Shown: positions 4,971-8,662 of the stretch, piece by piece
How the letters are laid out: every line of letters starts with the position of its first letter
Numbering within the stretch: the first letter of the stretch is position 1
Origin: Candidatus Methylomirabilota bacterium
GTDB taxonomy: Bacteria; Methylomirabilota; Methylomirabilia; Methylomirabilales; Methylomirabilaceae
Direction of reading: 5' to 3'
Length of the DNA stretch: 8,668 nt
NCBI GenBank assembly: GCA_016200385.1
Contig: JACQEV010000190.1
Coordinates: forward strand, 1 to 8,668
Program-made: the position numbers and the translations under genes
The notes under the pieces: generated by a model
Told to the model about the DNA's origin: nothing
The model's database searches: none
The model's input: only the letters and a program-made list of their open reading frames with translations

Positions 4971-4999
4971 TTGCCTCCGGGGAGTGATCTCTCTATAAT
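4971..4999 (+). promoter_or_regulatory. sigma70 promoter of hpnD, predicted leaderless
   Basis: TTGCCT (4971-4976) and a perfect TATAAT (4994-4999) are separated by the optimal 17 nt. Transcription usually begins 6-8 nt after the -10 box, here 5005-5007, which is the A of the hpnD ATG or one or two bases before it. No ribosome site exists between the -10 box and the ATG, so the mRNA would have little or no 5' leader. Confidence 0.72.
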
Positions 5000-5006
5000 A
5001 CCGACC

Positions 5007-5912
5007 ATGCATCAACCGGATGAGCTTCGAACGGTGAGCCGCAGGGTGACCAAAGCGAGTGGCTCCAACTTTTACTATGCATTTCTCTTCCTCCCCAAAC
5101 CCAAACGCGAGGCGATCTACGCCGTGTATGCGTTTTGCCGACTGAGCGACGACCTTGTGGACGAGGTGAAGGCCGGAGGTGATCCCGCCGCCGCACTGAC
5201 CCGATGGCGTCAGGAACTCGATATCGACTTTCACGGCGGCGCCGGTCACCCCGTCATCGCCGCGGTTGGCCAGGCGGCGCGCCGGTTTCACATTCCAAAG
5301 GCCTATTTCCAGGAACTGCTGAACGGGATGGAGATGGACCTCACGCGCGCCAGATATGCGACCTTTGAGGAGTTATACTCGTACTGTTACCGGGTCGCGT
5401 CGGTTGTGGGCCTCATCTGCATCGAGATCTTCGGGTATCGGAACCCGGGGACGAAGATGTACGCCGAGCGACTGGGGATCGCCTTTCAGCTCACCAATAT
5501 CCTTCGGGACCTGGCACTCGACGCACGTCGGGGGCGAATCTATCTCCAGCAGGATGAGCTCAAGCGGTTTGGCTACACCGAGGACGAGCTGCTGGCCGGG
5601 AGCTACAACGACGCGTTCGTGGAGCTGATGCGGTTTCAGTGTGGGCGTACTCGGGACTTTTTTCGAGCGGCATCGGCCGCGTTGCCGGCCGAGGATACAC
5701 GGTCGCTCCTGGCCGCAGAGATCATGCGGGCCATCTACTACCGCCTCCTGCTCAAGATCGAGCGGGAGCGCTACGATGTCTTCAACGGGGATATCTCTCT
5801 CGGCAAGACCCGAAAGCTCTTGCTGGCTAGCACCCTCTGGCTACGATCAGCACTGACCTCCTGGCACCGACGAAGATCTACAGGAGGCGCACCCACCTAC
5901 CCTCAACCCTGA
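5007..5912 (+). CDS. hpnD: presqualene diphosphate synthase HpnD
   Basis: The protein has 301 residues and belongs to the squalene/phytoene synthase family. Two farnesyl diphosphates are condensed to presqualene diphosphate, which HpnE and partners turn into squalene for hopene synthesis. The first Asp-rich motif is DDLVD (48-52). The second is NILRDLALDARRGRIYL (164-180) with D168 and D172. YCYRVASVVG (126-135) is typical of the family. HpnD is favoured over HpnC by this motif style and by the IEIFGY segment (139-144), but the two paralogues are close. The ATG at 5007 lies immediately after a strong promoter and has no Shine-Dalgarno. The stop TGA (5910-5912) touches the ribosome site of the OsmC gene, so the two are probably co-transcribed. 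Confidence 0.85.
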   Translation: MHQPDELRTVSRRVTKASGSNFYYAFLFLPKPKREAIYAVYAFCRLSDDLVDEVKAGGDPAAALTRWRQELDIDFHGGAGHPVIAAVGQAARRFHIPKAYFQELLNGMEMDLTRARYATFEELYSYCYRVASVVGLICIEIFGYRNPGTKMYAERLGIAFQLTNILRDLALDARRGRIYLQQDELKRFGYTEDELLAGSYNDAFVELMRFQCGRTRDFFRAASAALPAEDTRSLLAAEIMRAIYYRLLLKIERERYDVFNGDISLGKTRKLLLASTLWLRSALTSWHRRRSTGGAPTYPQP

Positions 5913-5925
5913 AGGAGGATTGCCC

Positions 5926-6399
5926 ATGGCTGAGCTGATCCATGTCTCCAAGGTTAAGATCGTCAAGGACAAGGGCCCCGTCCGGCGGGCCTACATTGAG
6001 GCGTTTCCCGAGCCGGTGCGATACGGCGTCCACGGAGGGATCAAGAAGTTCTACGGTGTGGAGCCGGAGGAGGAGCTGCCCACGACCCTCGACCACCTTA
6101 TCGCCGCGGTGGCCGGGTGAATGACCGGGACGCTAGCCGTGGCGCTAGCGGCGCGGAAGATCCCGACACACCCAGATCGCTTGTCTTCGGAAGTCGAGGG
6201 GGTCATCGAGAACGTGGACGGCAAGCCTCTGATCACGAAGATCACGGTCCACTATATGGTCAAGGTCCCCAAAGGGAAGCGCGAGGAGGCCTTGCGGGCC
6301 ATCGAGGTCCACGAGAAAGGCTGCCCCGCCTCTCAATCAGTCAAGCGGGGCATCACCATTGAATATGACGGCGAGGTGAAGGAGGACGAGCAGCCCTGA
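5926..6399 (+). CDS. OsmC-family peroxidase, candidate selenoprotein (Sec65)
   Basis: One frame of 157 codons is interrupted only by a UGA at 6118-6120. Upstream it encodes 64 residues ending LDHLIAAVAG. Downstream it continues MTGTLAVALAARK and on through EKGCPASQSVKRG to EDEQP. Together these make a full-length OsmC-fold protein. OsmC/Ohr enzymes reduce organic hydroperoxides with two cysteines, the first in an invariant Gly-Cys at the start of the central helix. Here the UGA is exactly that codon; the second cysteine is C133, 68 residues on (66 in E. coli OsmC, Cys59/Cys125). A hairpin with SECIS features follows. The start ATG has AAGGAGGA (5912-5919) 6 nt ahead, overlapping the hpnD stop. 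The alternative is a pseudogene or two fragments: ATG follows the UGA directly, so a restart is possible but would yield a useless half domain. Confidence 0.85.
6118..6120 (+). other. in-frame UGA, proposed selenocysteine codon of osmC-like gene
   Basis: The context is GCG-GTG-GCC-GGG-TGA-ATG-ACC, reading Ala-Val-Ala-Gly-[UGA]-Met-Thr. In OsmC proteins the residue after this Gly is the peroxidatic Cys (TGC/TGT), one third-position change from TGA. The frame is the same on both sides and codes conserved OsmC sequence. Confidence 0.78.
6125..6156 (+). promoter_or_regulatory. candidate bacterial SECIS hairpin (osmC-like gene)
   Basis: The upper stem is a perfect 7 bp, CGCTAGC (6131-6137) with GCTAGCG (6144-6150). 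The apical loop is CGUGGC (6138-6143). The lower stem adds CCG/CGG (6125-6127 with 6154-6156) and one more G-C pair between two mismatches. The loop begins 17 nt after the UGA and has G as its second base. Known bacterial SECIS elements lie inside the coding region just past the UGA, with the loop about 16-37 nt away and a G among the first two loop bases; SelB binds that loop. Confidence 0.7.
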
Positions 6400-7206: not shown

Positions 7207-7785
7207 TCAGGAGGACGCTCTCCACCCTGCCCCCTTGGCCAGCAGCAGGATCTTCGTCGACGCCTCCAGGGTCGTGGTAATCCTCAACGCGTCTTCGAGG
7301 CTTTCACCGACGACGAAGCTTCCATGTCCCCTCACCATGACGGCGCAATGGGCCTGCAGCAGCGACGAGGCTCGCTCGGCGACTTCCTGAGAGGCCACGA
7401 CGTTGACTGCCGCAATCACCGGAACGTTCCCAAGGATATGGCCTCCCTCCGAGTCAGCCGGGACGATCGTCTCACCAAGCAGGGACAGGGCAACCGCCGA
7501 CGGCGGGTGCGCATGGATGATCGCCTTCGCTGCAGTGGCGTGGTAGATCCCCAGGTGAACCGGCAGCTCCATCGAGGCCTTCGGATGCGCCGATTCCTCG
7601 AGCGACAGCGCAGTCTCAATAAGGTCATACGGCTCCAGGTGGCCCAGCATCGAGCCCGTCCTGGTGATCCAGATCCGCTCCCCCGAACGGAGACTGATGT
7701 TGCCGGCATGCGACGTAATCAGACCCAGGTGATAGAGATCCCGGCCCACCCACTGAAATGCCTCAAAGACCTTGGATCGTTCCAT
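7207..7785 (-). CDS. class II aldolase/adducin family protein (FucA-like)
   Basis: The protein has 192 residues from ATG 7785. ATG 7803 would add six residues (MRRDEE) and overlap the upstream gene; neither has a strong ribosome site. The fold is the zinc-dependent class II aldolase: SHAGNIS (25-31), TRTGSMLG (41-48), catalytic E73 in SMELPVHLGIY, zinc ligands H91 and H93 in HAHP, and H154 in RGHGSF. These match the E73/H92/H94/H155 arrangement of fuculose-1-phosphate aldolase almost to the residue. It may cleave or epimerise a sugar phosphate or a related keto acid; the substrate is not visible. It follows the deacetylase-like gene by 4 nt and is surely co-translated with it. The C-terminus is short (KGAGWRASS). 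TGA stop. Confidence 0.85.
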   Translation of the reverse strand: MERSKVFEAFQWVGRDLYHLGLITSHAGNISLRSGERIWITRTGSMLGHLEPYDLIETALSLEESAHPKASMELPVHLGIYHATAAKAIIHAHPPSAVALSLLGETIVPADSEGGHILGNVPVIAAVNVVASQEVAERASSLLQAHCAVMVRGHGSFVVGESLEDALRITTTLEASTKILLLAKGAGWRASS

Positions 7786-7789
7786 CTCT

Positions 7790-8662
7790 TCATCCCGCCG
7801 CATCGGCCAGGCAGGCGATAATCGGGGGTATCAGCGACGAGGCCAGGTCTGCCCTCGACCCGCCTCCAAGAACGACCAGAAGGCGACCGCCGCAGACCTG
7901 ACCCGCCAGGTCAAGAACCAAGTGGACGATTCCGTTATAGCATGTGGCGGTCAATCCGAGGTCGCCGTAATCACCCCGATGTCCGTCGAACCCGAAATAC
8001 CACACGAGGAGGTCCGGACGAAAGTCTGGGACCCGTTTGGCACAGGCTGCCTCCGCCGCCTCGAGATAGACCTCATCACTCCGAGCCCCGGCTTCGAAGC
8101 AGCGGCGATAGACCGCTACGTCCACTTTTGTCCCATCCGCCGACACATAATCGCTCCCGCAGAGACAGATATGCAAGACCGTCGGGTCGTCGCGGTAAAT
8201 GTCCCGGGTCCCGTCGCCGTGGTGCGCATCGGTGTCCAGAATGGCCACACGGCGCAATCCATGAACCTTCCTGAGCCGCTCGATGGCAATCGCGACATCG
8301 TTGAAACAGCAATACCCGCCGAAGAAGTCGCGTCCGGCGTGGTGACCTCCTGCGCCGATGAAGGCAAAGGCGTTGAGAAGTTCGCCAAGCCAGATCCGCT
8401 CGGCTGCCGCGACCACCCCTCCGACCGAGTGGCGCGCGGTGGATCAGAGCGGGTCTTGGGCCACCGCCCGGATAAGATCGGGCGTGTGAACTTTCAGGAT
8501 CAGCTCATCGGACGCCGGCTGGGATTCGAACAGCACGACCTGGGGACCGGCAAGCAGATCTCGCAGAATACCCGGAAAATCCGCCAGGCGTCTGCCCACC
8601 GTCAGGTAACTGCGCCGGGAGAAACTCGGGTGGTAGAAGATTCCGGTCCGCGGGGTCGTCAT
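7790..8662 (-). CDS. histone-deacetylase-superfamily protein, candidate selenoprotein (Sec73)
   Basis: The reading frame of 290 codons from ATG 8662 is broken only by UGA at 8446-8444. The start lies 6 bp from the window edge and could be further upstream. Before the UGA: TGIFYHPSF (6-14) and KVHTPDLIRAVAQDPL (57-72), the normal family N-terminus. After it: STARHSVGGVV, then GAGGHHAGRD with H107/H108, GYCCFND (116-122), DTDAHHGDG with zinc ligands D145 and H147, and WYFGFDGH with D226. The usual active-site Tyr near GGGY is replaced (LGGGSRAD, S269). Family members deacetylate acetyl-lysine, polyamines or small molecules. The frame, the conservation on both sides and a hairpin just past the UGA favour selenocysteine over a pseudogene. 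I do not know of a described Sec-containing member. The aldolase follows after 4 nt. Final stop TGA at 7792-7790. Confidence 0.8.
8408..8436 (-). promoter_or_regulatory. candidate bacterial SECIS hairpin (deacetylase-like gene)
   Basis: On the minus strand the 5' arm CGCGCCACUC (8436-8427) pairs with GGGUGG-U-CGCG (8418-8408). This gives ten pairs including one U-G, with a single bulged U (8412). The apical loop is GGUCGGAG (8426-8419). The loop starts 17 nt after the UGA, the same spacing as in the OsmC gene, and begins GGUC, the bases found in the SelB-contacting loop of the E. coli fdhF element. The bulged U is on the 3' arm here, whereas in fdhF it is on the 5' arm. Confidence 0.65.
8444..8446 (-). 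other. in-frame UGA, proposed selenocysteine codon of deacetylase-like gene
   Basis: The context reads Gln-Asp-Pro-Leu-[UGA]-Ser-Thr-Ala-Arg-His-Ser-Val-Gly-Gly. The frame is unchanged across the UGA and family-like sequence continues directly, with no indel. The site lies in the loop before the Gly-Gly helix, near the rim of the deacetylase active site. Confidence 0.65.

Follow-up and report, generated by a model that had tools for sequence, protein, structure and literature searches.

The window, which is the whole stretch of 8,668 nucleotides analysed here, carries an OsmC-family gene in which an in-frame UGA at 6118-6120 occupies the column of the peroxidatic cysteine. This codon is very probably read as selenocysteine (Sec), and the gene is predicted, with similarly high confidence, to encode a selenoprotein that is likely to reduce peroxides. 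The gene and the features belonging to it are the following.

5007 to 5912, forward strand: squalene/phytoene synthase family gene, recognised by a profile match, ending 13 nt upstream of the OsmC ATG
5912 to 5918, forward strand: Shine-Dalgarno-like AAGGAGG, read from the sequence, 7 nt 5' of the OsmC ATG
5926 to 6399, forward strand: OsmC-family gene, a predicted selenoprotein of 157 codons with one in-frame UGA, from frame reading, profile match and orthologues
6118 to 6120, forward strand: UGA, residue 65, predicted Sec in the peroxidatic Cys column of OsmC, from alignments and 97 genes
6131 to 6150, forward strand: SECIS-like hairpin with a 7-bp stem, the loop CGUGGC and a G at loop position 2, from folding and published rules
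6322 to 6324, forward strand: TGC, Cys133, predicted resolving cysteine, from its invariance and alignment to solved OsmC

A first-pass annotation made from the letters alone had described a frame of 157 codons, intact but for one UGA, and proposed a probable selenoprotein. The same frame was read here, with a single TGA within an otherwise open 5926-6399, and the proposal is supported by the conservation of the UGA, the SECIS rules, the presence of selA, selB and selD, and purifying selection. With the TGA codon read as Cys the protein scored 49.3 bits against PF02566 (OsmC; cut-off 27.5). An AlphaFold2 model adopted the OsmC fold with a mean pLDDT of 94.6, and its top Foldseek matches were the OsmC-type structures 2onf, 1ukk, 1ml8, 1lql and 1nye. 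In the family profile alignment with solved OsmC structures (1ukk, 1qwi and 1nye) residue 65 corresponded to their first Cys and residue C133 to their second, in agreement with the reactive and resolving positions originally assigned to them; the profile matched only four sequences among solved structures, at E 6.4e-6 to 3.6e-4. A protein alignment of 47 rows, comprising the window protein, 41 loci and 5 database proteins, had Sec or Cys in column 65 and Cys in column 133 with no exceptions. Profile score, fold and both active-site Cys columns place the protein within the OsmC superfamily. The open reading frame of the squalene/phytoene synthase was listed from a TTG at 4971, with an ATG at 5007, and its adjacency to the OsmC gene suggests a possible operon.

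The annotation was right that OsmC-like proteins are among the reported selenoproteins, although the published proteins belong to a different subfamily, represented by the curated model NF041052 (OsmC_like_Se). According to the selenoprotein literature drawn on (PMC1088965, PMC2398784, PMC9312934 and PMC13188914), OsmC-like selenoproteins were reported in 2005 from the Sargasso Sea, as three sequences with the motif UXXT, and again in 2008, as five sequences; they are also listed in reviews. Like the window protein, the NF041052 proteins adopt the OsmC fold, carry Sec at the position of the first Cys and have the bacterial type of SECIS. The motif of the window protein is UxxG(T/N) and not UxxT: among 97 distinct OsmC genes the residue at +3 after Sec was Gly in all 97, and at +4 Thr occurred in 92 genes and Asn in the other 5. 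The window protein reached 22.2 bits with NF041052, for which the cut-off is 95, and 19 of 47 family members searched with the model matched at E 0.001 (best E 6.5e-7). Genes over the NF041052 cut-off occur in 22 genomes of the phylum, and the motif AFULMTQ (UxxT) was found in translated L193 and L195 and in both translations from L198 and L199. Such members (for example P0242, AFULMTQ, 166.7 bits) are genes separate from the window type, sometimes within the same genome. Judged by sequence, the window OsmC is a subfamily different from the published UxxT one, in a Sec-OsmC family that is already known, and it adds to that family a group outside the curated model, present in records from several phyla. 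A third, more distant OsmC-like gene of the window genome, on contig C411 (L200:1403-1741, minus strand), has an in-frame TGA within GAUTAITLRMYAQRKGW and scored 53.5 bits against the NF041052 cut-off of 95. There are thus TGA genes of the NF041052 type, the window type and the L200 type, so that this phylum apparently has no fewer than three sequence groups of Sec-bearing OsmC-fold proteins.

In the mechanism of OsmC and Ohr the first Cys attacks the hydroperoxide and bonds with the second Cys, after which a dithiol resets the enzyme. The OsmC and Ohr peroxidases of E. coli and Thermus (1nye, 1qwi, 1ukk, 6d9n) share their fold and both Cys columns with the window protein, which differs in that Sec replaces the first Cys and in an identity of about 25% or less. 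Homology at this distance makes a peroxidase role the somewhat favoured function. In such a scheme SelA, tRNA-Sec and SelD would produce Sec-tRNA, and SelB, bound to the hairpin at 6131-6150, would bring it to the UGA; Sec65 of the completed protein would attack an organic hydroperoxide and then bond Cys133 as a selenenylsulfide, which a dithiol would reduce. The titles of the solved Ohr complexes 6ebd and 6ebg suggest dihydrolipoamide as a candidate reductant.

The best surviving alternative accepts the selenoprotein and differs on function only, taking the product for a thiol, persulfide or sulfur-transfer enzyme built on the OsmC fold. It retains an appreciable, if minority, share of the probability, and is consistent with scores that stay under the cut-offs of the classical models: 33.3 bits for OsmC (cut-off 85.8), 17.1 for Ohr (88.85) and 19.0 for SACOL1771 (166.15). 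A peroxidase, on the other hand, is suggested by the retention of both OsmC Cys columns and by gene neighbourhood. In all three stretches fetched from Rokubacteria-type genomes (L197-L199, from G047, G049 and G051) a published-type Sec-OsmC (NF041052) was located within 1.5 kb of the window-type OsmC, at 0.8-1.4 kb, with a peroxiredoxin-like gene between them; this neighbourhood lends weak support to the peroxide role, but in four other genomes (G039, G082, G086 and G087) window-type and published-type OsmC genes lie on separate contigs. It is a small selenoprotein cluster, the peroxiredoxin-like gene having an in-frame UGA (RWUPYC) that was read only in L198 (G047).

The nature of the codon itself was assessed from the DNA of related genes. 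The Sec column was TGA in 96 of the 97 distinct genes, TGC in one and TAA or TAG in none, so that TGA or TGC accounted for all 97; these genes derive from 114 match rows after identical genes were merged and the short matches L132 and L133 dropped. Their true stops were TAG in 39, TGA in 38 and TAA in 20, and an ordinary stop codon would therefore not be expected to behave like the UGA of the column. Within the phylum the OsmC gene was present in 58 of 95 genomes, with TGA in all 66 match rows (the codon position being verified solely for rows with a fetched locus). Among the best 80 of 82 relatives in a public genome collection, 79 carried TGA at the column, the exception being L120 with TGC; the records are labelled Methylomirabilota/Rokubacteria, Acidobacteria, Deltaproteobacteria, Actinobacteria, Nitrospiraceae, Abyssobacteria, Armatimonadetes and others. 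The frame is kept in sister species, six comparisons with which gave dN/dS values of 0.07-0.18 3' of the UGA, and the part of the frame downstream of the UGA is under strong purifying selection. A second copy of the subfamily with a TGA (L153:251-712; 66% identity) was observed in the window genome.

In protein databases, of the best 120 of 379 relatives, 11 had Cys in the column, two Trp and one Gly, while 106 did not reach it; among the matches listed, those without the UGA column were mostly of 89-93 aa. Pieces of this kind would be expected if the UGA were a true stop, yielding a 64-residue peptide and, after restart at the adjoining ATG (TGAATG), a second peptide of 92 residues. The TGAATG is present in the window, and the codon following the column was ATG in 76 of the 97 genes. 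It was CTN instead in the remaining 21, however, with neither TAA nor TAG in the column of any gene; full-length Cys versions exist, SECIS-like hairpins are far commoner at the column than at other codons, and in the structural model a cut here would break the helix formed by residues 54-76. Termination at this codon is thus considered very unlikely, and Sec is retained as its reading. The database proteins that start past the UGA (P0130, P0134 and P0136-P0240 except P0204), many of them named OsmC-like or OsmC family protein, represent a common gene-finder truncation. The absence of the part up to the UGA from 106 of 120 relatives, among the matches listed, illustrates how easily selenoproteins are cut or overlooked by gene finders.

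The first-pass annotation had also placed a hairpin 17 nt after the UGA. Its 7-bp stem (6131-6137/6144-6150) and 6-nt loop (6138-6143) were recovered on folding, but the distance of 17 nt from the UGA is that to the first base of the loop, not of the stem. The folding energy was -13.8 kcal/mol for a 30-nt stretch and -10.4 kcal/mol for the stem-loop alone. The rules for a bacterial SECIS, as given in PMC13188914, are a loop of 3-9 nt, a stem of 4-16 bp, a G within the first two loop positions, a spacing of 16-37 nt between UGA and loop and an energy of -7.5 kcal/mol or lower; the script used was stricter, in that the loop G had to precede G or U. By these rules both the OsmC hairpin and that of an HDAC-like gene in the window qualified. 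Qualifying hairpins followed the Sec codon in 90 of 96 Sec-OsmC genes, compared with 3.4% of 11,830 other codons in the same genes (codons within four of the Sec codon being excluded from the controls), and none was found in the Cys gene L120.

Mean stability 3' of the UGA ranked first of 136 codon offsets across the OsmC genes (z -3.15); two other folding-window settings placed it third or fourth within a set of windows that all span that hairpin. Taken singly, the window hairpin was only modestly more stable than its shuffled versions (z -0.69 and -1.15), a different structure is favoured in one folding frame of 40 nt (L020 row), and for these reasons the case for a SECIS rests on the orthologues. 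Alignments for covariation were split by hairpin register into groups A2 (n=27) and A3 (n=45) of the 97 genes; outside these were 19 third-register genes, L044, L046, L090, L153 and the Cys gene L120, and L035 was omitted from the hairpin alignments as identical to L034 in that stretch. In the group of 45 sequences 98.0% of pair cells were paired and 12 cells were changed on both sides, and none of 500 shuffles did as well in pairing, in changed cells or in covariation score. Three pairs changed on both sides, a number reached by 5 of 500 shuffles. When the partners were slid by -1 there were more changed cells (16 vs 12), with pairing of just 50.2%. The register group to which the window itself belongs was 95.1% paired and showed no covariation, shuffles equalling the observed values.

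Three of the four sel genes to which the annotation had pointed are present in the window genome. A complete selB scored 383.5 bits; selA is represented by two fragments at contig ends, matching model positions 1-254 and 248-453 and apparently one gene split by assembly; and selD matches model positions 1-310 of 311 and has an in-frame TGA of its own (L016, G000:C210:9680-10606, minus strand). The fourth, tRNA-Sec (selC), was not found in this assembly of 411 contigs and 81% completeness, the best match scoring 41.2 bits against a cut-off of 47. ARAGORN gave no tRNA-Sec on four loci, nor did an Rfam scan of seven stretches, in which only ordinary tRNAs and SRP RNA exceeded the cut-offs. Matches to selC over the cut-off were obtained for 13 of 15 genomes of the genus, as a 91-base match at 65 bits or more in 12 and as a 98-base match at only 56.4 bits in G031; the two genomes without one were G000 and G023 (80% complete). 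selB was detected in 84 of 95 genomes of the phylum. In a sample covering 50 of 80 named loci it was present in 43 of 50 OsmC-family genomes, mostly labelled as other groups, and had no match in 7, completeness not being considered; the genome of the lone Cys OsmC (G095) also has selB.

The presence of selA, selB and selD bears on a further alternative, in which a changed code or suppression would cause the UGA to be read as an amino acid other than Sec. The two Trp and one Gly in the column of relatives, among the matches listed, would fit such a reading, but they probably come from sources translating TGA by another code. In this window TGA also serves as the terminator of genes, among them those for the squalene/phytoene synthase, the OsmC protein and the HDAC-like protein, which argues against a changed code, and Cys is the alternative residue in both the OsmC and the HDAC-like family; insertion of another amino acid is regarded as extremely unlikely. 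Decay of the gene or an assembly error, to which the fragmented source (411 contigs, 81% complete) might incline one, is scarcely credible, since it is refuted by a TGA shared, across many assemblies, by 96 of 97 distinct genes, which likewise rules out the chance nonsense mutation that the annotation had thought unlikely, and decay is further contradicted by the low dN/dS 3' of the UGA. The pattern of a selenoprotein gene, a conserved UGA with Cys as its alternative, was found for both the OsmC and the HDAC-like genes.

The UGA of the HDAC-like gene, a second conserved one in the window, is not mentioned in the first-pass annotation. The features of this region are given below.

7207 to 7803, minus strand: class II aldolase/adducin-like gene overlapping the end of the HDAC-like gene, from the ORF list and a profile match
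7790 to 8662, minus strand: HDAC-superfamily (AcuC-like) gene of 290 codons with one in-frame UGA, the second predicted selenoprotein, from profile and relatives
8309 to 8311, minus strand: Cys118 (GYC-CFND), inferred by motif to be the counterpart of HDAC8 C153, invariant in 54 rows
8413 to 8432, minus strand: SECIS-like hairpin with a 6-bp stem and an 8-nt loop, GGUCGGAG, starting 17 nt past the UGA, from folding and the rules
8444 to 8446, minus strand: UGA, residue 73, motif DPL-U-STAR, predicted Sec, from the codons of relatives

The sequence data make it probable, with good confidence, that this gene founds a new selenoprotein family, that of a putative HDAC-fold zinc enzyme with a predicted Sec73 that would have lost the usual catalytic Tyr. 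The protein scored 160.1 bits against PF00850 (cut-off 27.9), and its model (pLDDT 86.2, weak at 18-23 and 105-110) had the HDAC fold, with 5ji5 as the best structure match (TMq 0.79). It has the fold and the GGHH, DxDxH and GFD motifs in common with the HDAC superfamily (HDAC6, HDAC8 and bacterial HDAH); these are presumably the zinc and catalytic motifs, and within them D145, H147, D226, H107 and H108 were invariant in 54 rows. Classical HDAC deacetylases have a catalytic Tyr after the GG motif. The window protein departs from this, S269, also invariant in 54 rows, being aligned with the Tyr of the HDAC6 GGY motif, and on that criterion it is not a classical HDAC; a further difference is the Sec or Cys at residue 73.

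Among 18 distinct HDAC-like genes covering the site the codon was TGA in 17 and TGC in one (L147), and the gene was found in 17 of 95 genomes of the phylum. The best 120 of 1442 relatives of the protein, from a search that scored only the 7994 best candidates, included 113 that cover the site, and all 113 had Cys. In the phylum of Desulfacinum 36 of 297 genomes had an HDAC-like match, none with TGA, and of 30 genes read there 29 had Cys and one, a distant gene, had Tyr; the phylum of locus L122 (labelled Acidobacteria), with 297 genomes, gave no HDAC-like match at E 1e-60, in a search run without a positive control. A class II aldolase-like neighbour recurs at 5 of the 18 further HDAC-like loci that were fetched, not all of them long enough to show one. 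In G028 a shorter OsmC match with a TGA (L133, contig C29; residues 39-114, 80% identity) adjoins an HDAC-like gene, as in the window, and the full-length OsmC copy of that genome sits on another contig, C96.

The hairpin of the window's HDAC-like gene had an energy of -10.1 kcal/mol. Hairpins qualifying by the SECIS rules were present in 14 of 17 HDAC-like Sec genes; the rate was 8.2% over the remaining 4,001 codons of these genes, and among 29 Cys genes only 3 had such a hairpin. Stability 3' of the column ranked first of 145 offsets in the Sec genes (n=17; z -4.47) and fourth of 145 at the same column in 30 homologues without TGA (z -2.42); as the latter also rank high, the stability is partly a property of the HDAC coding sequence, and the rule-based test separates Sec from Cys genes better than mean stability does. 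RNAalifold applied to 16 HDAC-like sequences gave a hairpin somewhat unlike the window's own fold, and the exact HDAC SECIS is accordingly not fixed. A 66-row tree of HDAC-like proteins with either Sec or Cys required two changes of the Sec label, and HDAC-like Sec may have had a single origin. The partial copies L148, L149 and L150, the last without the Sec column, were excluded from the tree. L149 (G000:C307:8596-9063) is a partial second HDAC-like copy, diverged 5' of the UGA and nearly identical 3' of it, a pattern that could have arisen by gene conversion, strain mixture or assembly chimera.

At E values up to 1 the HDAC-like protein matched nothing in NCBIfam. No HDAC is included among the 119 families and subfamilies of prokaryotic selenoproteins tabulated in 2026 (PMC13188914), and the accompanying text contains no HDAC- or AcuC-type names; relative to that table the window adds a probable HDAC-fold family. 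No HDAC selenoprotein was found in the literature covered, although a Methylomirabilota genome with 63 selenoproteins in Cell Reports, known here by citation, may hold either gene. Should the HDAC case be true, selenocysteine would reach a zinc hydrolase fold widely used for deacylation, and comparison with the Cys relatives would allow a direct test of what Sec does to activity and redox control.

According to PMC6174833, HDAC8 activity is switched by a disulfide that forms reversibly between C102 and C153. The HDAC-like protein resembles it in placing a predicted redox residue close to the loop that precedes the first helix, and a Cys within the GFC/GYC loop; its first partner would be Sec73, which motif alignment puts near but not at the position of HDAC8 C102. 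With C118 in the counterpart of the C153 loop, the HDAC8 switch makes a putative Sec73-Cys118 pair an attractive idea, and by this analogy the pair might tentatively be regarded as a fast redox switch or a catalytic couple.

Outside the main genes a stretch of about 30 bases, cgcccttcgtcggggctcagggcaggccctt, was observed by eye to occur twice in the window, at about 230-262 and 1288-1322; it is perhaps a dispersed repeat.
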